From positions 1 to 36,396 of the forward strand of contig JAMXCW010000019.1 of the NCBI GenBank assembly GCA_024451685.1: DNA of 36,396 bases, in the 5' to 3' direction. The translations under genes were made by a program, and so were the position numbers. This document shows positions 8,905 to 33,548 of the stretch, piece after piece; positions within the stretch are counted from its first letter, which is position 1, and the number at the start of each line of letters is the position of its first letter. The notes under the pieces are model-generated. The model was not told the origin of the DNA and did no database searches. It saw only the letters and a list, made by a program, of their open reading frames with translations. Source of the DNA: Candidatus Bathyanammoxibius amoris (GTDB lineage Bacteria; Planctomycetota; Brocadiia; Brocadiales; Bathyanammoxibiaceae).

Positions 8905-9273
8905 TTAATACCCGGTGGGCTTCGACTCTATGTCTAGCCCTTGTGTTATGACTTCAACCTCAGTAACGGTGAAACCTGCTTCCTGCACCGCCTTCTTGAG
9001 GTTCTTGTGGTCGGAACCCTTTGTGACCTTGACGTCGGCTCCACCGCTCTCCCAGCTCACTTCAACCTCCTGTACCTCAGTAAGTTCACTGAGCGCGGTC
9101 TTTACCTTCGCCTGGCAGGCTCCGCAGACCATCCCCTCTATGTCCATGTGAACGACCTCTAACTCCTCGGCTGCCATTACCATTGAGCTGGAAGACACCA
9201 GTGCCCCAACGGGTAAAGCCGTAACCAAACTCAATACGGCGGCAGCGATTAACAACCTTCCAATTACCTTCAT
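8905..9273 (-). CDS. Exported heavy-metal-associated (HMA) domain protein, canonical CxxC
   Basis: About 122 aa. The ATG at 9273 has GGAGGG eight bases upstream and is preferred over a GTG at 9282. A signal peptide (LLIAAAVLSLVTALPVGALV ... VMAA) is followed by one HMA domain: VVHMDIEGMVCGACQAKVKTAL carries the metal-binding GMxCxxC motif, and VQEVEVSWESGGADVKVTKG is the following beta hairpin. HMA proteins of this size bind and pass on Cu(I) or similar soft metals in the periplasm. It follows the ECF sigma/anti-sigma pair by about 75 bases on the same strand, so it may belong to the same operon. Confidence 0.85.
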   Translation of the reverse strand: MKVIGRLLIAAAVLSLVTALPVGALVSSSSMVMAAEELEVVHMDIEGMVCGACQAKVKTALSELTEVQEVEVSWESGGADVKVTKGSDHKNLKKAVQEAGFTVTEVEVITQGLDIESKPTGY

Positions 9274-11047: not shown

Positions 11048-11458
11048 TCATTCATCATCAAATATTGATGTTGATCCTACAACATCATCCTTTTTCCAAT
11101 CCTTGTAAGGGTCCTCATCAGATTTCTTCTTTTCACGCTTCTCCACCTTACTGGCAAGGTACGCCCTGAAACCCGCCTTTTTTACCGCACTGATTAAGCT
11201 GTCGGTGTCTGTGCCCTTTTTCACGGTCACAATGGCCCTCTCGTTCTTGAAATCTACGAACACCTTTCTTACGCCCTTTACCCCGTTCAGTGCCTCCTTT
11301 ACCTTCATGGTGCTTGCGTAATTCTCCATCCCCTTTATGTTCAACTTAATCTTTTTTGCCGCATACGCGGAAGAAGGGCCGGAAACAGGGCCAAGGTCAA
11401 CCGCCGTCACCAAAACAAAGACACATGCGAACACCGCCGCCCTAGCTGCCGTTCTCAT
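11048..11458 (-). CDS. Exported HMA-fold protein lacking the metal-binding cysteines
   Basis: 136 aa with a signal peptide (AARAAVFACVFVLVTAVDLG ... AYA) and one domain that aligns with HMA proteins: IKLNIKGMENYASTMKVKEALNGVKGVRKVFVDFKNERAIVTVKKG. The GM of GMxCxxC is kept, but the two cysteines are replaced (ENYAST); no cysteine remains in the mature part. A charged C-terminal tail (EKREKKKSDEDPYKDWKKDD) follows. It cannot bind metal as a classical HMA protein does; a structural or protein-protein role is possible. AGGAGG precedes the ATG at 11458 by 6 bases, and a strong terminator follows. The fold assignment is good, the role unknown. Confidence 0.7.
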   Translation of the reverse strand: MRTAARAAVFACVFVLVTAVDLGPVSGPSSAYAAKKIKLNIKGMENYASTMKVKEALNGVKGVRKVFVDFKNERAIVTVKKGTDTDSLISAVKKAGFRAYLASKVEKREKKKSDEDPYKDWKKDDVVGSTSIFDDE

Positions 11459-18030: not shown

Positions 18031-18843
18031 TTATTCTTTAGGCCCACCCTTAAACGTGAAGTCTTCCTTAGACGGCTCTCCACACTTAAAGGACTCAGGT
18101 TCGGGATGTTTCGGGTTAAAAGCGGGCACAGTCACCACAGGGAAAGGCGCCACTCCAAGATGCCTTCCTTCAAAGCTCACAAACTCGTCCAACAGTTTTC
18201 CCAGCGTCCGAAAATATTCCAGATGAGTGGTGGCAGAAAGTATTTTAGAAAAGGCACCGACCCAGGCACCTAAATGACCTTTGAGGAACTTCCCCTGGGC
18301 CTCTCTGCAGGTCCCTGCGTTTCCCTCTTCTCCACTTCTCAGGGCATGATGCTCTTTAAACGTAACCACATGCATAAATTCCAGCTCTGTCCCTATGAAA
18401 TCTACCAATGCCTTTTCTTCCACTGAGATCTTAAAACCAAAGGCATTGTAGAACCCTGCGATATCCGCCAGCTCCTGGCCCTTCATGAACACGTGGCTGG
18501 AGCAAAACTCCGTCTCGTTGTGGGGACACATCAGGCCCATAGAAAATATCCTGTTGTACTCACCTTCCATGTCTATAACGTCGAGCGAACGCACTTCTTT
18601 CTCTATCGCCCCGCAAAACTCATTAACCGCGGCAACCAGCTCTTTCTCCTCCGGGAAGAAAGATGCTGCCATTTTGAGGCTTGCCGCAGTCTCGCCGCTT
18701 TTCAGCTCTACCAGGTAATCTTCCGTGGGGTAGGCAAAGGCCGCCGCTAAATGGCTGTAGATTGTACTCCTGGCCTGAACAACCTCCTGCGTCCTGTCTA
18801 TAAGCTGCTGTTGTTCCACTTTAAACCTCATCCCTTTTATCAT
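18031..18843 (-). CDS. TorD/NarJ-family molybdoenzyme chaperone
   Basis: About 270 aa, all helical. The TorD-like core reads ARSTIYSHLAAAFAYPTEDYL, DMEGEYNRIFSMG...CPHNETEF and DIAGFYNAFGFKISVEEKALVDFIGTELEFMHVVTFKE. These proteins bind the apo molybdoenzyme and its twin-arginine leader and hold back export until the cofactor and Fe-S clusters are inserted. It follows nxrB by about 30 bases, so it is most likely the private chaperone of this NxrA. The start is uncertain: ATG 18843 is used, GTG 18864 and ATG 18831 are possible, and none has a good ribosome site. A C-terminal extension rich in Pro and Lys follows the core. Confidence 0.8.
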   Translation of the reverse strand: MIKGMRFKVEQQQLIDRTQEVVQARSTIYSHLAAAFAYPTEDYLVELKSGETAASLKMAASFFPEEKELVAAVNEFCGAIEKEVRSLDVIDMEGEYNRIFSMGLMCPHNETEFCSSHVFMKGQELADIAGFYNAFGFKISVEEKALVDFIGTELEFMHVVTFKEHHALRSGEEGNAGTCREAQGKFLKGHLGAWVGAFSKILSATTHLEYFRTLGKLLDEFVSFEGRHLGVAPFPVVTVPAFNPKHPEPESFKCGEPSKEDFTFKGGPKE

Positions 18844-18876
18844 GGCAGGGTGTACGAAACACACCCCGCAATTTTA

Positions 18877-20052
18877 TTACGTTATGTTCAGATGCTTCTC
18901 CGGCCTTACGATTACAGGCTCCTCTATAGGCACGGTCATTATCTCCTTGCCGCCTTTGTCATAGGCGGTGATGGCGTCGGTATTGACCTTGTACGAGAAG
19001 ATAAGCTTCTGCGTCACACCGAAGAGCTGTAATATAGAAAGCAGCTCGTGAGAAGGCTTTTTGTACCTCGCAATCGCATCTTCCACACCCGGGCCGAACA
19101 TCTGATACAGATACTTCCTCGGCGCCCATCTGGGTGGGATATAATAGATGTTAGGCTCCGTCCCAAACTGCGGATATAAAGGCAATGCTACCTTCAACTT
19201 TCTCACCAGGGTATGAACCGGGCTGTCAGGGTCATCAATCCAGCCCTGAAGACGAATCTTACCCACGCAGGCGGAGATACACCGCGTTACCATAGCACTA
19301 CCCTCTGTCAACGGGTCTTTACCCTCAAGCCTCGGATAACAGGCGATGCACTTCTCCGAGACCCTCGTATTGCCGTTGTACATGGGCTTCTTGTACGGAC
19401 ACTGCTCCACACACTTCCTGTAGCCCCTGCACCTCTTCTGGTCTATAAGGACGATACCGTCTTCCTGCCTCTTATAGATGGCCTTCCTGGGACAGGCCGC
19501 CAGACATGCGGGATAGGTGCAGTGATTGCATATCCTCTGAAGATAGAAGAAGAATATCTCGTGCTCAGGCAGTGAGGCACCCTCTAGAAGGCCGTCTTCC
19601 CTGTGCTTGGGCTGACGGTTGGCCGTATCCTCATAAAAGTTGGGGACTCGCCATTCCTTGTCCTCCGGTATATAACCGACGGCCTGCTGTCCGCTGGCCT
19701 CTATGCTGTTAGTGGCCTTTTCAAAGAGCGTGTCACCTTTGTAGACACCATAAGGCCCCTTCTCGTCGTCCTTTTTACCTGTGTCCCAGCCCTTCTGCGG
19801 CCCCAGGGTCTCTAGTGTCTTAACGTCCCAGGACTGGGGATATCCGCCGAAAGGCTTGGTCTCAACATTGTTCCACCACATAAACTCCTGGCCTTTATTA
19901 AACGTCCAGGCGCTCTTGCAGGCCATGGTGCAGGTCTGACAGGCTATACAGCGGTTTATGTTAAAGACTGCGGCAAACTGTCTCTTGGACCTTTTCTCCT
20001 CAAAGGGATACTCCATCTCACGGCCTAGCTGCCAATTATAGACTTTCGTCAT
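18877..20052 (-). CDS. nxrB: Nitrite oxidoreductase beta subunit (Fe-S electron transfer)
   Basis: 391 aa, NarH/NxrB family. Four cysteine groups are seen: C35-x2-C38-x2-C41-x3-C45 (CIACQTCTMAC), C175-x2-C178-x4-C183-x3-C187, C208/C214/C218 in RCRGYRKCVEQCPYKK (the [3Fe-4S]-type group with a non-Cys position, as in NarH CRGWRMC), and C235-x2-C238 with C258-x3-C262. They carry three [4Fe-4S] and one [3Fe-4S] cluster that link the molybdenum site of NxrA to the haem subunit. No signal peptide is present; export would be by piggyback on the twin-arginine leader of NxrA. A purine-rich GGAGGAGG ribosome site precedes the ATG. It lies 57 bases after nxrA. Confidence 0.92.
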   Translation of the reverse strand: MTKVYNWQLGREMEYPFEEKRSKRQFAAVFNINRCIACQTCTMACKSAWTFNKGQEFMWWNNVETKPFGGYPQSWDVKTLETLGPQKGWDTGKKDDEKGPYGVYKGDTLFEKATNSIEASGQQAVGYIPEDKEWRVPNFYEDTANRQPKHREDGLLEGASLPEHEIFFFYLQRICNHCTYPACLAACPRKAIYKRQEDGIVLIDQKRCRGYRKCVEQCPYKKPMYNGNTRVSEKCIACYPRLEGKDPLTEGSAMVTRCISACVGKIRLQGWIDDPDSPVHTLVRKLKVALPLYPQFGTEPNIYYIPPRWAPRKYLYQMFGPGVEDAIARYKKPSHELLSILQLFGVTQKLIFSYKVNTDAITAYDKGGKEIMTVPIEEPVIVRPEKHLNIT

Positions 20053-20109
20053 TATTGCTCCTCCTCCTACTCCTAATGATTCTCTTTGTCGCCCAAGTGT
20101 GTATGCCTG

Positions 20110-23100
20110 TTAGACATAGAACTCACCTTTGAGATATCTCTTCATATCCTCACTCTCCCTTCCGGGAGTGTGTCCCGTCCTGGCAGGGTCCCACAGGCCC
20201 CTGCCCTCTATGCCTCCGTCCTCAGCCTTCGTTATCCTGACCAGGGTCTCCTTCGGCGGCGTATTGGGGGCATGTACGTCTATCTCATAACCCTTTTCGA
20301 TATGCTGGCCCGCATCGTTCTTCCTGACCAGACTATCGGTCATCATGGTTGGCTGGAGCCAGCCCCTTGTTATGGACTGGTGAGAGCCATATCTAAAGTT
20401 CGACTGGTAGCCGGTATCCGCAGAGACCGCCCTGCCGTCCGCCCTTGTCTCATGGGCAAACACGGTCTTCCATGAGGCCATCCACGGGGCGTGCTTCATC
20501 ATGGTCACACCCCTCGGGTACGACGGGTTGTACTTTACTCTCAACATAAGGCGGGAAATCTTGTAGAAATCGTCTGTTGGTTTCCAACCCATGTATGGCC
20601 TGTCTTCTTCGTTAGCGTCACACCAGACGTAGTCACCGTCATTTATGCCCAGTTCTTTTGCGTCATCCGGGTTCATGTGAATCTGGTGCTCACCGACGCC
20701 CGGAGTCCTTTTATCCATACGGTACGGGTCGCCGTAGTTTGAATCCCAGATAAGGTTCCAATCGGCGACAGCCCATGAAGAGTGCACCTTGTGCCTGGTC
20801 TTCGGCGTCAGACAGTAGAACCTGTAGCCCTTCTCCCAGAGCGGGTTCTTAATGTTCTTCACCTTGGACCACGGCAACTTTACGTTCCTGACTGAACGTT
20901 CATCCGCGCCGGTGGCGTCAAGCGGTATGCCGTAGTCATTGGGTCTTATGGCGTCATGGGTCGCCACTATCGCGTTGGGCAGGTAAGGCGTCGCCTCGAC
21001 CGGTTCACGGTATACGACAAGGTTTTCACCGTATTCGATGAACTCGTCTTCGTCGCGGTAGAACTCAAGCCTGCCTGTCTTATTGTACATGGGCTTGGAC
21101 TCGTTAATCTGTTCCCATGCGGGTATCCTCGGATAAGTACGGAAGAGCATCATCGATGCCTTTTCCTGTTTGATCAGTTCGTCCAGCTTGTAGCCCGCGG
21201 TCGTGCTGCCGGCATCGAGTATACGCTGCAGGTAGATCTCCGACTTTCCTTCCAGAGTAAACTTGTAGTGCTTTCTCCAGTGCTCGACACCCGTAAGCTC
21301 GGTGAGCTTGGCGGCTACGTTCGCCAGGACCTCATGGTCCTGTCTGGTATCGTAGATGGGGTCTATACCCCCCGTCCATGCCTGCAGGAACGGGTTGGAG
21401 CAGGAGGCTGCCACCTCCGGACTGGTAAATTCCATCCAGCTGTGCACGGGGAACACCAGGTCCGCATACTCACAACTCCCCGTCCACTCCCAGTCCTGGA
21501 CCACGATCATCTCTTCCCTCGGGTAGACGTTCTTAATCATGTTGAAGGCCCACTTGGCGTTATTCAGGTGGTTGTCGTTAATGTGCCATTCCACCTTGGT
21601 AGGCGTGGGCATATGCGTCTTGCCGGTGAAGACCTTGCCCTTGACCTTGAGGATGTTCTCCCCGTAACCCCAGTAAGCGGGCTCTTCACACGACATGAAT
21701 TTCTTCCTCTTAATATCGCCCGGCTTGGCGTCCGGGTTGAGGTTCTGGTTAAAGGGGTCTTCATATATTACGACTCCAGCGCCGGGAAATACGCAGCCCT
21801 TGTAGTTGCCTGCCCAGTGTCCCGGGTTTCCGCCCGACTTGCCGATATTCCCTGTGAGTGAGAGAACGAGGAAGTTTGCCCTGTCCTTCATGTCACAGTG
21901 GAAGTAGTGGTTGGTGCCCTCGCCGGTATGTATCTGGGCCGGCCTTATAGTGGCAAAATCCTTCGCCAGCTGCCGGACCATCTTCTCGGGGCAGCCTGTA
22001 ATGTCCTGCACCGTTTTCGGGTCGTACTCCTTTGTAAGCTCCGAATAGAGCTGGAATACGGGCCTGACTTCAACCTCTTTGCCGTCCGTGGTCTTGACCT
22101 TGAAGCTGCCATTGAGCGCGGGGTCTATCCCCATTTTCTTAAAGTGCTGACCAACGTCTTCTCTGGTGATGACCTTGGGGCCGTTTGACTTCGTGTCCCA
22201 GACAACGAAATCTCCCCACTCTTCCCTCATCTCAGGGTCTATTATCTGGACGGTTTTACTGTAACCGTTAAGCTCCTTGTTCTTGTAGCCGCTTATTATG
22301 TCGCTGGCCTTCAGGAGCTTGAGCGTATCCCACCTCATCAGCAGGGGCAGGTCGGTAAACTCTTTTACAAACTTCTCATCATACTGCTTTTCTTTTATCA
22401 GTATGCCGGCCACGCCCAGCATAAGCGCGACGTCGGTACCCGGACGAACCGGCATCCAGTAATCGGCCTTCTGGGAGGCCGGACTGTACTCCGGCGCGAT
22501 GTTGACTATCTTCCCGCCCCTCTCCATAATCTCCACCCACCAGTGTGCGTCGGCCATCTTGTTCTCTATCATGTTCTTCCCGCAGAAAACGATCAGCTTT
22601 GCGTGGCGGAAGTCATTTATCTCCGGGTCGAAGGTCTGAACACCCGTCACCATCGGGTGTCCCGGTCCCAGGTCGCCGTGCCAGGTATAGGTAGACCATA
22701 CCCTTCCGCCGGCCTTCCCGTCATAAATACCCATCATGTTTGAAAAGCGGCGAAGGGCGGACGCGATACGCCCTATCCCGTTAAGACCGATGGTGGGACG
22801 GAACTTCATCGTCCTGGCGCCACTTCCCTCCACGGCCTCTATCATCTCCTCGGGATAACCCTGCTCCCTCAATCTCTCCGCGCCCTTGGCACCGCCGTAA
22901 CGCTCCATCACCCTCAGCAGACCCTTGGCGGCAAGCGTAGAGGCGTAGTCCCATGAAACCCGCTGCCAGGAATCCCTGCCCCTGCGGAAGTATTTCTGCT
23001 GGTTCTCGGGTGTCATCGGGTCGGGGAAGCCGGCCTCTACCCACTCAACCCAGCCCTTGCGGGCCATCGGGTATTTAATCCTGTAAGGACCGTAAACCCT

Positions 23101-23463
23101 CCTGACCAGCGTGTAACCCTTCAGACACCCTCTGGGGTTCCACATGGGGGAACATTTGTTGCCGTAGAGGTCGGTGACCTCGTGGCTGTCGTAGTTCTGC
23201 TCTGTCCTTGTGACAATGCCATTTCTCACAAACGCCCTCAGGCGGCATATATGTGTATCGTTCGGGACGCAGGCAAAGGTAAAGCTGCGGTCGTATTTAT
23301 ACTGGTCCCTGTAAACGTCTTCCCACTTTCTGTCCGGATAGTGTTCAAGGGGATTCATTATGTCCTCCTGCGCCGCCAGATGACGCAGGCGCAGGGACGT
23401 TACCATAGCACCACCGGCTGCCGCACCGGTATATCTCAAGAAGTCGCGTCTGGAAATATCCAT
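20110..23463 (-). CDS. nxrA: Nitrite oxidoreductase / nitrate reductase-type molybdopterin catalytic subunit
   Basis: 1117 aa, type II DMSO reductase family, with best fit to exported NxrA-type enzymes. A twin-arginine leader (SRRDFLRYTGAAAGGA, R5-R6) sends it to the periplasmic side. The FS0 cluster ligands appear in CVPNDTHIC (C65, H71, C73) and PRGCLKG (C113). The molybdenum-ligand Asp lies in NKMADAHWW, the position of Asp222 in NarG. The pattern EQNYD...DLYGN...WNPRGCLKGY is typical of NXR. These enzymes oxidise nitrite to nitrate; the sequence cannot exclude work in the nitrate-reducing direction. AGGAGGG precedes the ATG. The order nxrC-nxrA-nxrB-chaperone is compact. I prefer NXR over a NarG/perchlorate reductase because of the Tat leader plus the haem subunit and context. 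Confidence 0.88.
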   Translation of the reverse strand: MDISRRDFLRYTGAAAGGAMVTSLRLRHLAAQEDIMNPLEHYPDRKWEDVYRDQYKYDRSFTFACVPNDTHICRLRAFVRNGIVTRTEQNYDSHEVTDLYGNKCSPMWNPRGCLKGYTLVRRVYGPYRIKYPMARKGWVEWVEAGFPDPMTPENQQKYFRRGRDSWQRVSWDYASTLAAKGLLRVMERYGGAKGAERLREQGYPEEMIEAVEGSGARTMKFRPTIGLNGIGRIASALRRFSNMMGIYDGKAGGRVWSTYTWHGDLGPGHPMVTGVQTFDPEINDFRHAKLIVFCGKNMIENKMADAHWWVEIMERGGKIVNIAPEYSPASQKADYWMPVRPGTDVALMLGVAGILIKEKQYDEKFVKEFTDLPLLMRWDTLKLLKASDIISGYKNKELNGYSKTVQIIDPEMREEWGDFVVWDTKSNGPKVITREDVGQHFKKMGIDPALNGSFKVKTTDGKEVEVRPVFQLYSELTKEYDPKTVQDITGCPEKMVRQLAKDFATIRPAQIHTGEGTNHYFHCDMKDRANFLVLSLTGNIGKSGGNPGHWAGNYKGCVFPGAGVVIYEDPFNQNLNPDAKPGDIKRKKFMSCEEPAYWGYGENILKVKGKVFTGKTHMPTPTKVEWHINDNHLNNAKWAFNMIKNVYPREEMIVVQDWEWTGSCEYADLVFPVHSWMEFTSPEVAASCSNPFLQAWTGGIDPIYDTRQDHEVLANVAAKLTELTGVEHWRKHYKFTLEGKSEIYLQRILDAGSTTAGYKLDELIKQEKASMMLFRTYPRIPAWEQINESKPMYNKTGRLEFYRDEDEFIEYGENLVVYREPVEATPYLPNAIVATHDAIRPNDYGIPLDATGADERSVRNVKLPWSKVKNIKNPLWEKGYRFYCLTPKTRHKVHSSWAVADWNLIWDSNYGDPYRMDKRTPGVGEHQIHMNPDDAKELGINDGDYVWCDANEEDRPYMGWKPTDDFYKISRLMLRVKYNPSYPRGVTMMKHAPWMASWKTVFAHETRADGRAVSADTGYQSNFRYGSHQSITRGWLQPTMMTDSLVRKNDAGQHIEKGYEIDVHAPNTPPKETLVRITKAEDGGIEGRGLWDPARTGHTPGRESEDMKRYLKGEFYV

Positions 23464-23542
23464 TGTCTACTACCCTCCTAGTATAACTTTATCCACATAG
23501 GCCGTTCGCCCATGAGAGACGAACTACCTGAATGTTCTTTCG

Positions 23543-25117
23543 TTAAAATTTTAGACTGTACCACGTGGAAACCGCCTTTTGTCCGTTCCTGTCCCCTCTC
23601 TCGCCATGCCACACCGCAAAGGACATCGGTATTGAAGAGCCTTTCGAGAACTTTATGTCATTCGACCCCGCACAGGCCAGCGTACGCTTGAAGACGACAC
23701 GCCAGGTACCCTCAAAGTAGATACCCTTGCCCTGTACGTTCTGACCGGCCTCACCCTGTGAGGCAAGGCTTCCGAAGCCGATGGCGTTTATGTCTTCTAC
23801 CTGAGACGGGCGATGCTCCTGCGAAAAAAGATTGCCCACCGCGCGCCCCGACATAAAGACCTTGTCCTGCAGTTCCTTCGTGTGAAAATAAGTGTCAACA
23901 TGCATGCCGGGATAGACGTGTCTTATTTCCACATAGTGTCCCTGGTCCTGCTGCCAGTCGGCCTTCCAGTGCCAGATATTAACTGGAATGTCTTCACCGG
24001 TCCTCTTCTTTGAATTACCCATACCGATGAAGGGGAACTCACCCGTGGGTGAGAACATCACGGCACAGGCGTCCCTGAAGGTCTCGCTCTTCTGGTTAAT
24101 CAGGTCCTCCCTGTCGTCGTCCCATTCAAGCAGTATGGCAAGCTCCTTGTCCGTTTTAAGCGCCCTGACCCGCACGTGCATTGGAGATATCTCCGGCTGG
24201 AACAGTTCTTTTAAAGGTATCTCGTGCACCGTGGCGTCATTCCAAACCTCGTCGTATGGATTATCGTCCGGGATTTTTTTGCTGGTATGGTCAACCGCCA
24301 CGCTCAGGTCTGAGGGAAGCTTCACCACCTTCACATCGGGGTCCCTGAGGGAAAGCACGTACTGCACCACCAGCCACCGCTCCTCGTCACTCAACTGGTC
24401 ACCGGAGAAGGCCGGCATCGGCGTGCCCATCAGGCCGGTGGCGAACCTGGTGTATATGTCTTCCGGGGTGTCGCCACCCTTGAAAACACCCTTGGTAAAA
24501 TCTCTGACCTTGATCGGACGGTCCCAGTCATCCACCTGCTCATCGGCCGAGGGTCCGTCTCCCACACCGAGCCTGCCGTGACACTTTACACATCCCAGCT
24601 TCTCGTTCTCATACATCGCCTTGGCCTTCTTAGCGGTCTCAGGACCAAACGACGGTGGAGAAGGCACATTTATAGGCGTAGGCGTTCCGCGAAGCTCAAA
24701 GAGGTTGAAGGTCTCGTCATCTTCCTCATCATAAAAAACGGCAAGCGTCTTCACGTACGCGATTGCGTTTCGACGCTCATCCTCCGGGATATAACTAAAT
24801 GCGGGCATTGAGGAACCGGGTATGCCGTTTGTCACGGTCTTAAGAAGGTCGTCATCCGTGGGCATCTGCCCGGTGGGAGTAGAACGGAGCGCAAATTTCC
24901 CGACGGTAAGATCTCTGGGCTTGGGGTAAAGAAATACGGCGGCCCTGCCCTTCCCGTCACCCTTCTCGCCATGACAGCCCAGACACCTCTTCTTGTACAC
25001 CGCCTCTCCCGCTTCCTTATCGCCACCTGCGTAGCTGTTAGAGGGGATGCCGAGGCCTGACAACATAAGCAACCCCGGTACAACACAGACACTCAGCACC
25101 TTGCGTAGATACATCAT
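23543..25117 (-). CDS. nxrC: NXR gamma-type subunit: two cytochrome c domains fused to an EbdC-like haem b domain
   Basis: About 524 aa. The ATG at 25117 has AGGAGG six to eight bases upstream; GTG 25138 would place the start before it. A signal peptide (KVLSVCVVPGLLMLSGLGIP) is followed by two class I cytochrome c domains: C45-LG-C-H49 with Met in SSMPAF, and C176-VK-C-H180 with Met in TPMPAF. The C-terminal half (from about 280) resembles the ethylbenzene-dehydrogenase gamma / NxrC haem b fold: VRVRALKTDKELAILLEWDD, FRDACAVMFSP and the final EGTWRVVFKRTL. It probably takes electrons from the Fe-S chain of NxrB and hands them to soluble carriers or the octahaem protein. Fusion with two c-haems makes it much larger than a plain haem b gamma subunit. 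Confidence 0.85.
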   Translation of the reverse strand: MMYLRKVLSVCVVPGLLMLSGLGIPSNSYAGGDKEAGEAVYKKRCLGCHGEKGDGKGRAAVFLYPKPRDLTVGKFALRSTPTGQMPTDDDLLKTVTNGIPGSSMPAFSYIPEDERRNAIAYVKTLAVFYDEEDDETFNLFELRGTPTPINVPSPPSFGPETAKKAKAMYENEKLGCVKCHGRLGVGDGPSADEQVDDWDRPIKVRDFTKGVFKGGDTPEDIYTRFATGLMGTPMPAFSGDQLSDEERWLVVQYVLSLRDPDVKVVKLPSDLSVAVDHTSKKIPDDNPYDEVWNDATVHEIPLKELFQPEISPMHVRVRALKTDKELAILLEWDDDREDLINQKSETFRDACAVMFSPTGEFPFIGMGNSKKRTGEDIPVNIWHWKADWQQDQGHYVEIRHVYPGMHVDTYFHTKELQDKVFMSGRAVGNLFSQEHRPSQVEDINAIGFGSLASQGEAGQNVQGKGIYFEGTWRVVFKRTLACAGSNDIKFSKGSSIPMSFAVWHGERGDRNGQKAVSTWYSLKF

Positions 25118-25296
25118 CCGGCTCCTCCTATTTCCCACATTTATTAATAAGTCTCAGACCCGACCTTCCCGGCTATCAAGGCCCGTTGACTTGCATACGG
25201 CTTGTCTTGCCATTACAGGTATATTACAACAATCACTTCAAGCAGCACTATAAGTTACACTGGATGCTGCAATTACGGCATCCTGACATGTATATA

Positions 25297-31241: not shown

Positions 31242-31273
31242 TTGACCTTCCAGTCCACTGGAAGGTGTATAAT
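31242..31273 (+). promoter_or_regulatory. MerR-type promoter with 20-bp spacer and perfect dyad operator
   Basis: -35 TTGACC (31242-31247) and -10 TATAAT (31268-31273) are 20 bp apart, too long for normal sigma-70 use but diagnostic of MerR-family control. The spacer is filled by a perfect dyad, CCTTCCAGT - CC - ACTGGAAGG (31246-31265), very like CueR-type operators. MerR regulators bind here and twist the DNA to align the two boxes when the metal is bound. The MerR gene itself is the first gene behind it, so the operon is autoregulated. Confidence 0.85.
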
Positions 31274-31298: not shown

Positions 31299-31751
31299 AT
31301 GAAAAGGCAACTGTTAATTGGTAGTGTAGCCGGAGAACTGGGGCTTAACCCTAAGACCATCCGCTATTATGAAGACGTCGGTCTTTTACCAGAGGCTGAT
31401 CGCACTAGCTCTGGTTACAGGGTTTACTCCCCAGAGGTAATCAACAGGCTCAAGTTCATAAAGCAGGCCCAAAGGCTGGGGTTCAGGCTCAATGAAATCA
31501 AAGACATACTGCTTTTAAAGGAAAGCGGCACCCGGCCGTGCACCCACGTCAGAAGGCTTACCATAGACAAGATAAAAGAACTTGAGGAGCTTATTAGAGA
31601 ATCAAGTGCGTTACGAGATAATCTGAAAACGCTCTTAAGAAGGTGGCCTCATAAATCAGGTAAAGAGGCCACAATATGTCCACATATTGAGGCTGCAGTG
31701 CCAACCAATATTGGGACTAAAAAGAAAGCAAGACGCAAAAGAGAGAGGTAA
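31299..31751 (+). CDS. MerR-family metal-responsive transcription regulator
   Basis: 150 aa from the ATG at 31299, which follows AGGAGGAGGGG. The N-terminal winged helix reads IGSVAGELGLNPKTIRYYEDVGLLPEADRTSSGYRVYSPEVINRLKFI, the typical MerR pattern. A coiled-coil dimerisation helix follows (IDKIKELEELIRESSALRDNLKTLL). Candidate metal ligands are the Cys in GTRPCTHV (equivalent to MerR Cys82) and the Cys/His in ATICPHIE (near MerR Cys126). The middle MerR cysteine (Cys117 region) is RRWPHK here, so it is not a canonical mercury sensor. The metal cannot be told. It is the first gene of a plus-strand operon. Confidence 0.9.
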   Translation: MKRQLLIGSVAGELGLNPKTIRYYEDVGLLPEADRTSSGYRVYSPEVINRLKFIKQAQRLGFRLNEIKDILLLKESGTRPCTHVRRLTIDKIKELEELIRESSALRDNLKTLLRRWPHKSGKEATICPHIEAAVPTNIGTKKKARRKRER

Positions 31752-31756
31752 ATACG

Positions 31757-32035
31757 ATGATTACAAAAAGAAGGGTAGAGATTTTTACTGCCGGCTGTCT
31801 CCTCTGTCAGGAGGCGGTGAAGATGGTGAAGGAGCTTGCCTGCCCAAGCTGTGAGGTAGTTGTTTATGACCTTAATGAGCAGTGCGAGAGTAAGGAATGT
31901 CTGGACAAGGTGAGTCACTACGGGATCAGCCGTGTACCGACCATCGTCGTAGACGGCAAGATAGCCGAGTGCTGCACGGGTTCCAGACCAAACGTCGAGG
32001 CACTAAAGGCGGCAGGGATTGGCCACGCCTTATAG
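31757..32035 (+). CDS. Small thioredoxin/glutaredoxin-like protein, cysteine-rich
   Basis: 92 aa, five bases after the MerR stop. The N-terminal strand and redox motif read VEIFTAGCLLCQEAVKMV (C14-x2-C17), and the cis-proline region is ISRVPTIVVDGKIAECC. This is a thioredoxin-fold protein of the short type found in metal and arsenic loci. It has eight cysteines, including a second C29-x2-C32 pair (ACPSC) and a vicinal CC. No signal peptide, so it acts in the cytoplasm. A thiol-disulfide or metal-handling role inside the MerR operon is inferred. Confidence 0.8.
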   Translation: MITKRRVEIFTAGCLLCQEAVKMVKELACPSCEVVVYDLNEQCESKECLDKVSHYGISRVPTIVVDGKIAECCTGSRPNVEALKAAGIGHAL

Positions 32036-32054: not shown

Positions 32055-32993
32055 ATGGCAAGACACAAAGCCCTTTCGGCCATGTGCCTAATCGCCACGC
32101 TCTACCTCACTAACCAGCACTCCAAAGAGGCATTGGCTCAAGCGCCCATAAACTTTGACACTGCCGTAACACCGTTCTTCTCTGGCAGTGTATTGAAGTC
32201 CCGGGGTGTGTTTATCCACAAAACAGACGATGATAACAAGGAGCTGGATAGAAGGCTAACTATAAGGAAAGTACCTACTGTCTTTGGCTACGCACCCACG
32301 CGCGATGTTGCGGCTACTATTTCAGTCCCCTTGATAGAAAAATCTCTGAGGAGAAATCTATCTGGCAGACGAGTAACGTTGGATGCGGCCGGACTGGGTG
32401 ATATATCCATTATGGGCAGGTGGACCTTCAAGAAGTGGCTAGGCCCCTGGAGGAGGACCGACCTGGCCATTATCGGCGGTGTGGAACTGCCCACAGGAGA
32501 TACAAGCAGGAGGGATGAGGGCATCAGGCTGCCGCCAAAACTCCAGTTGGGTTCAGGCTCTTTTGACCCTTTCCTTCGCATGGCCTTCAGCCGTATTGTG
32601 AGACGCAACAGCACCTTTGCCGAACTTCAATATAAGGTAAATACACCCGGGGCGCTGGACTATAAGTTCGGTGATATTCTGAAATACGACCTGGCCTTTG
32701 CATATAGATTCTTCCCTGCCAAGAAGTACCCCAACCCTGAGTTCTACGGAATCCTGGAGCTAAATGGTGTCTGGGAGCAACAGGCCAGACAGAGGGGGAG
32801 GGATGTTGAAAACACAGGGAGCAATACCATCTTTCTCTCCCCGGGTATCCAGGCCATTCCCCTGAAGAATCTACTAATAGAGGCCTCTGTGCAGATACCC
32901 ATCTATCAAGACCTGAGGGGAAGGCAATTGGGATATGATGTAGGGAACCTGGGGAACTCTAATATTGTCTTTGGATTTCGGTTCCTGTATTAA
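32055..32993 (+). CDS. Outer-membrane beta-barrel protein (PF13557-like 'transporter')
   Basis: 312 aa from the ATG at 32055, which has AAGGCGG upstream; an earlier TTG at 32019 would overlap the preceding gene. A signal peptide is present (ALSAMCLIATLYLTNQ ... ALA). The mature protein alternates strands and turns: ATISVPLIEKSL, AAGLGDISIMGRWTFKKW, LAIIGGVELPTGD, FDPFLRMAFSRIV, FLSPGIQAIPLKNLLIEASVQIPIYQ. It ends in NSNIVFGFRFLY with a C-terminal aromatic, the usual barrel-insertion signal. The PF13557 (MetA-pathway phenol-degradation-like) family fits. It may serve export or uptake of the metal sensed by MerR. Confidence 0.8.
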   Translation: MARHKALSAMCLIATLYLTNQHSKEALAQAPINFDTAVTPFFSGSVLKSRGVFIHKTDDDNKELDRRLTIRKVPTVFGYAPTRDVAATISVPLIEKSLRRNLSGRRVTLDAAGLGDISIMGRWTFKKWLGPWRRTDLAIIGGVELPTGDTSRRDEGIRLPPKLQLGSGSFDPFLRMAFSRIVRRNSTFAELQYKVNTPGALDYKFGDILKYDLAFAYRFFPAKKYPNPEFYGILELNGVWEQQARQRGRDVENTGSNTIFLSPGIQAIPLKNLLIEASVQIPIYQDLRGRQLGYDVGNLGNSNIVFGFRFLY

Positions 32994-33038
32994 GATGTAG
33001 TGGAACCTCGGAATATAAGAATAAGGAGGTATTTAAAA

Positions 33039-33548
33039 ATGAAGTCTATAGGAAACCCTATCCGTGTACTCTTTATCATTTCTTTAGTCCTATTCTCGCA
33101 GCCCTTCATCTTTGCTCAAGTAGAAAAGGCAGAGTTAGAAATTGTTGGCATGGTCTGTAACCTTTGAACCTACGGGGTCGAAAGACTCTTAAAGCGCCAG
33201 GATGGCGTTCAGGATGTAGTAGTTAGTTTGGAAAAACAGTCAGCAGTAGTAACAGCTAAGCAAGGAGATTCTCTAGACCTACATAAACTGGTACAGGCCG
33301 TAGCGGATAGCGAACTTGGGGTCGAGAACATTAAAATTATTATAAAAGGTACACTCGTAGAACGAGATGGCCGTTTAGCCATAAGAGAGGACATAAAGGG
33401 AAATCTATTTCTTATAGCAGAGGGGTTAAAGGCCGATAAAGCAATGATGGGTAAAGAGCTGAGGCTGGTAGGTAAGGTTCATGCCCTAAAAAAGAAAACT
33501 CCACCTCATTTAACAATAGAAAGCTTTGAGCTTGTAGACACTGAGTAA
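33039..33548 (+). CDS. Putative selenoprotein: exported HMA-domain protein with CxxU motif (in-frame TGA at 33165)
   Basis: The ATG at 33039 has AAGGAGGT eight bases upstream. The frame encodes a signal peptide (residues 1-26, ending FIFA), then an HMA domain. Codon 43 is TGA (33165-33167), and the frame then stays open to the TAA at 33546, giving 169 residues. The TGA falls exactly on the second cysteine of the HMA metal motif: E-I-V-G-M-V-C40-N-L-U43, followed by TYGVERLLKRQDGVQDVVVSLEKQ, a normal HMA continuation. A SECIS-like hairpin follows. The C-terminal part (about 105-169) is a small beta domain that I do not recognise. No start with a ribosome site exists after the TGA. The alternative is a pseudogene or sequencing error. 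It is the last gene of the MerR operon. Confidence 0.75.
33168..33209 (+). promoter_or_regulatory. SECIS-like hairpins after the in-frame TGA
   Basis: The candidate is AGCGCC (33193-33198), loop AGGAT (33199-33203), GGCGTT (33204-33209): 6 bp, loop 31 nt after the TGA, with G in the first two loop bases. It matches the known limits for bacterial SECIS elements and resembles the AGGTCT loop of E. coli fdhF. A second hairpin, GGGTC-GAAA-GACTC (33175-33188), lies between it and the TGA. Confidence 0.6.

Follow-up and report, generated by a model that had tools for sequence, protein, structure and literature searches.

Metal-binding selenoproteins related to the locus

Selenocysteine (Sec) has already been catalogued in proteins of the HMA and mercury-handling type, namely the UxxU metal-binding family NF041115 and the MerT/CopZ fusion family NF045683 (PMC13188914, PMC9312934, PMC2398784), the former also being listed as a putative mercuric reductase, UxxU (PMC13188914, PMC9312934). 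It is likewise catalogued in MerP and in a ZntA-type ATPase (PMC2398784, PMC13188914, PMC9312934), and Sec-containing MerP and mercuric transport proteins come from a 2008 ocean survey (PMC2398784). We found little on selenoproteins in Brocadiales in the literature searched.

Here we describe a gene in a stretch of 36,396 nucleotides of Candidatus Bathyanammoxibius amoris (the window), whose product is probably a genuine selenoprotein, namely an HMA protein of the MerP/CopZ type that is predicted to be exported and to have the metal site Cys40-x-x-Sec43; the claim rests on one TGA-bearing sequence from a draft assembly. Like NF041115, this protein has Sec within the metal motif of an HMA-type domain, and it scores 2.2e-8 against that family. 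However, its 34.1 bits compare with a cut-off of 95, the family has two Sec residues (UxxU) where the window protein has CxxU, and the window protein carries an extra C-terminal beta domain. With NF045683, the MerT/CopZ fusion-like heavy metal transport selenoproteins, it shares a MerP/CopZ-like module found among selenoproteins of mercury-type context, but it scores 27.7 bits vs 375 and the gene is devoid of a MerT part. Finally, MerP (TIGR02052; PDB 1osd, 1afi) and CopZ (6ff2, 2qif) have the same HMA fold and a GMxCxxC metal site, and MerP is exported; in contrast to both, the window protein has Sec for the second Cys and extends about 75 C-terminal residues beyond their length, and its match to TIGR02052 (32.3 bits) lies below the cut-off of 92.55. 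Given the scores far below the family cut-offs, the CxxU motif and the C-terminal domain, we regard it as being of the same kind as NF041115 and NF045683 but not a member of either.

An in-frame TGA at the second metal-binding cysteine

The gene and its associated signals are as follows:

33039..33548, + strand: HMA-domain protein gene of 169 codons, with a predicted signal peptide, HMA domain at residues 33-90, C-terminal beta domain and the motif GMVCNLU
33023..33029, + strand: ribosome-binding site AAGGAGG, 9 nt upstream of the ATG, from the sequence
33165..33167, + strand: in-frame TGA, predicted selenocysteine codon U43, Cys in 7/7 aligned homologues
33193..33209, + strand: SECIS-like hairpin AGCGCC-AGGAU-GGCGUU, 26-42 nt after the UGA, its loop beginning 31 nt after it

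The frame opens with the ATG at 33039 and closes with a TAA ending at 33548, and its sole internal stop is the TGA at codon 43, which takes the place of the second Cys in the metal loop GMVCxxC. Read through this TGA, the protein matches the Pfam HMA profile PF00403 with 39 bits (cut-off 24.8; 1.1e-9), and since the match spans the TGA, both of its sides contribute to one domain. The initial annotation had portrayed a signal-peptide protein with a strong ribosome site and a single TGA replacing this Cys, in a frame that is coding-like on both sides and completes an HMA domain. These elements are all borne out: the N-terminus is hydrophobic and, judging by its sequence, of the signal-peptide type, and downstream of the TGA the frame shares 51-52% identity over 124 codons with two homologues that have Cys. 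In the structure model (mean pLDDT 81, above 90 for the HMA part) the best matches are MerP and CopZ (TMt 0.72-0.90), which, together with the profile score above the gathering cut-off, points to a ferredoxin-like fold for the HMA domain. The C-terminal beta domain is without a family match. An automatic gene caller would truncate the protein at residue 42 or miss the gene altogether.

The canonical motif had also been pointed out elsewhere in the window, at 8905-9273; GMVCGAC is present there, but its bearer is only a distant paralogue (33% identity over 93 residues). Another exported HMA-fold protein, at 11048-11458 (- strand), has lost the CxxC motif (GMENYAST) and thus probably lacks the usual metal binding.

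An open frame around a TGA is by itself common, with 16 TGA codons in the window being flanked by at least 40 and at least 80 open codons, mostly antisense. Hence, it is homology that makes the TGA significant, the length of the open frame after it not being significant alone. The homologues comprise seven non-identical sequences from Brocadiales genomes, all of which have Cys at the column of codon 43, answering a question that the initial annotation had raised about this residue. Two come from the same family, namely L042 (the same sequence as L016 of another collection; 55% identical to the window protein) and L043 (likewise the same as L017; 52%), while the Scalindua-type sequences (L044-L048) are 24-29% identical. 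The architecture and operon neighbors of these homologues are the same as those of the window gene, whereas they carry CxxC instead of CxxU.

A second TGA-bearing homologue was not found in 9 genomes of the family, 75 of the class and 392 of the phylum, in a scan of a genome collection, in two scans of viral contigs or in plasmids; the pattern of the genome-collection scan requires Cys at codon 43, and that scan is therefore biased against TGA versions. Such a homologue in another organism supports the assignment of a bacterial selenoprotein but is not strictly required for it. No stop codon interrupts any of the roughly 150 HMA matches listed across 73 genomes of the class. In G006, the only same-genus relative with the gene, just the last 28 codons are present, the contig ending before codon 43. 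L018, considered as a second TGA candidate, was rejected as it holds just the last 28 codons.

That the TGA stands alone in this respect would also be expected if a Cys gene had recently suffered a chance TGC-to-TGA change, leaving a nascent pseudogene or a fragment of only 42 residues. Moreover, the Cys codon at this position is TGC, one base from TGA, in both of the closest Cys homologues. However, the 169 codons show no other damage, which also speaks to the further disruptions that the initial annotation had named as a sign against its reading, and both the operon and the ribosome site are intact. Single-base changes could create a nonsense codon in the gene or its Cys homologues in 63-67 ways, two of which affect a Cys codon and one of which is codon 43; accordingly, the chance of a random nonsense change landing there is about 1.5%, in keeping with the earlier contention that this residue would rarely be hit. 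Taken with the hairpin and the Sec system described below, these observations make a nonsense mutation improbable.

A SECIS-like hairpin specific to the TGA version

The bSECIS model specifies a loop of 3-9 nt with a G within the first two positions, a stem of 4-16 bp, a distance of 16-37 nt from the UGA and an energy of at most -7.5 kcal/mol (PMC13188914). The hairpin of the window gene conforms to these rules, with the loop AGGAU, a stem of 6 bp, a distance of 31 nt and -7.5 kcal/mol. If drawn with the A-U pair of the loop closed, it has a GGA loop, 7 bp, a distance of 32 nt and -7.9 kcal/mol (-9.3 when extended), and its loop follows the pattern N1-G-G-N-N2. No SECIS-like hairpin was found in the two closest Cys homologues (L016/L042 and L017/L043); relative to L017/L043, this part of the gene shows one Lys-to-Asp replacement besides three synonymous changes.

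Such a hairpin follows 2.0% of the codons of the window genes and arises in 0.7% of synonymous recodings of the HMA gene. The simple contiguous-stem detector behind these frequencies misses the selD hairpin of the same genome, and hence gauges chance rather than sensitivity. The folding energy of the whole segment was discarded as evidence for a SECIS, being uninformative (z -0.5), and the hairpin-specific test was used in its place. Combined with the approximately 1.5% odds of a nonsense change at codon 43, the rarity of the hairpin renders chance alone a poor explanation.

The same structure bears on a one-base sequencing or assembly error, whereby the true codon would be TGC or TGT and the product an ordinary CxxC HMA protein. 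While the assembly is a draft in 26 contigs, such an error must have struck codon 43 and, by coincidence, have done so ahead of a SECIS-like hairpin that is missing in the Cys homologues; we accordingly consider it very unlikely.

Selenocysteine machinery of the host genome

The initial annotation had called for selA, selB, selD and a tRNA-Sec (UCA), and all four were recovered from the host genome (2.07 Mb, 95% complete), which thus has the complete machinery expected for a bacterial selenoprotein. The tRNA-Sec (70 bits) has the UCA anticodon, selA (576 bits) and selB (376 bits) are adjacent on contig 2, and SelB retains its hairpin-binding winged-helix domains. Further, selD (352 bits) and the formate dehydrogenase gene fdhA (858 bits) each have a TGA where Sec is expected (CGGU and CARTUHAP, respectively), followed by a SECIS-like hairpin with the loop GAAUG in selD and GGUCU in fdhA. 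These two TGA-containing selenoprotein genes lie on contig 3 (selD, L037) and contig 8 (fdhA, L081) of the same genome. The presence of the Sec system and of two further selenoprotein genes also argues against a nonsense mutation in the HMA gene. Among the relatives, tRNA-Sec is found in both same-family genomes with the Cys homologue; none was found in the two Scalindua-type genomes of family f4 for which the class search gave a Cys homologue (G052, G059).

Genome-wide reading of TGA as another amino acid, such as Trp, can be rejected as having practically no likelihood: TGA terminates 6/27 genes of the window, implying a genetic code without general recoding, and the homologues show Cys, not Trp, at the codon 43 column.

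The TGA at the second metal-binding Cys of the relatives and the Sec machinery of the genome together indicate that the gene probably specifies a real selenium-containing metal-binding protein. Under this proposal, SelB with Sec-tRNA(Sec) would be recruited by the hairpin and insert Sec at the UGA, whereas in the absence of selenium the product would end at 42 residues.

Selection on the frame

After the TGA, comparison of the window gene with the two close homologues gives pN of 0.29-0.31 and pS of 0.69-0.80, the former being well under the latter, so that the frame appears mostly under constraint. Nevertheless, the corresponding pN/pS is 0.39-0.41 for the window gene vs 0.29 for the Cys pair, and of the columns invariant in the seven Cys homologues the window gene keeps 4/5 before the TGA and 10/19 after it, the other nine of the latter being altered mostly conservatively. 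In the last 28 codons, pN/pS relative to G006 is 0.78, a value based on few changes. Synonymous divergence from L042 is 0.74 over the whole HMA gene and 0.43 in a neighboring gene. This somewhat faster evolution of the window branch than of its Cys relatives, which would also suit a nonsense mutation, might be due to partly relaxed constraint, to a functional shift or to a long branch, and the conservation is also compatible with a very recent nonsense change.

A putatively metal-responsive operon

The HMA gene is the last of a four-gene + strand operon, in which it follows genes for a MerR regulator, a thioredoxin-like protein and an outer-membrane protein. The elements of the neighborhood are:

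31242..31273, + strand: MerR-type promoter, TTGACC, 20-bp spacer and TATAAT, from the sequence
31245-31266, within the MerR-type promoter: perfect 10+10 palindrome ACCTTCCAGT-CC-ACTGGAAGGT, found at the corresponding position in both L042 and L043
31299..31751, + strand: MerR-family metal regulator (Pfam MerR_1/MerR-DNA-bind)
31757..32035, + strand: thioredoxin-like small protein (MTH895/ArsE type) without a signal peptide (Pfam Thioredoxin_3, 1.9e-6; NCBIfam TIGR00412 below cut-off)
32055..32993, + strand: outer-membrane-type protein (Phenol_MetA_deg; Pfam PF13557, 2.3e-6), likely start ATG 32055, 80-81% identical in L042/L043
33685..34020, - strand: DUF2703 / 'DF family (seleno)protein', Cys form (NF049942, 96.8 bits vs cut-off 70; PF10865)

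Both the gene order and the operator palindrome are kept in L042 and L043. The TTG at 31242, which the listing of open reading frames gives as the start of the MerR gene, belongs to the promoter of that gene as its -35 box, and the likely start is the ATG at 31299. The regulator scores 101 bits against the NCBIfam CueR model and 100 bits against MerR, both below cut-off, and relative to the solved regulator 4ua1 it keeps two of three aligned C-terminal Cys residues, the middle one being Trp. The operator may be of a CueR-like type. A MerR/CueR-type regulator would control the HMA gene together with the thioredoxin-like and outer-membrane proteins, and the HMA protein, once exported to the cell envelope, would bind a soft metal ion through its Cys/Sec pair.

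The DUF2703 gene is convergent to the HMA gene in the window, whereas in L042 it belongs to the cluster and has the same orientation; its family name implies Sec-containing members elsewhere. The L042 cluster continues with DUF2703, a MerT-HMA protein, another HMA protein and MerA. MerT lies beside the HMA gene in relatives, and MerA in L042. In the window's own genome, no MerT match was found and neither was MerA, the best MerA match being a lipoamide dehydrogenase. Mercury reduction is hence not supported, and we rejected a mercury-resistance (mer) operon for this genome. Elsewhere in the window, a - strand cluster (18031-25138) codes for an alpha subunit of the Type II DMSO-reductase family (1117 aa) and an iron-sulfur beta subunit, along with a likely chaperone and a cytochrome c-like protein, and adjoins genes of the bc-complex type; it presumably resembles nitrite oxidoreductase (NxrAB-like).

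The context also helps in weighing whether the protein, as a real selenoprotein, might act in thiol-disulfide redox reactions and not as a metal carrier. A redox function is presumed for many CxxU selenoproteins (PMC13188914), and a thioredoxin-like gene is part of the operon. Yet, the fold is that of an HMA domain with MerP and CopZ as its nearest structures, both regulator and operator belong to the MerR type, which senses metals, and the genes of relatives adjoin MerT and, in L042, MerA. On balance, a redox role seems rather unlikely.

Implications of a Cys-Sec metal site

With the metal-binding selenoprotein as the preferred reading, we tentatively raise the possibility that a switch from Cys to Sec endowed a periplasmic CopZ/MerP-like protein with a Cys-Sec soft-metal site, in a lineage where MerT and MerA were not detected. 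Hg or Cu might then be held in the envelope by formation of a selenolate complex, without import and reduction, and metal tolerance would be selenium-dependent. The stronger soft-metal or redox site proposed in the initial annotation would be in keeping with such a Cys-Sec pair. If real, a Cys-x-x-Sec HMA protein of a new architecture joins the small set of metal-handling selenoproteins, and its close Cys relatives, some of which are Sec-competent, offer natural pairs for testing what selenium contributes to a soft-metal site.
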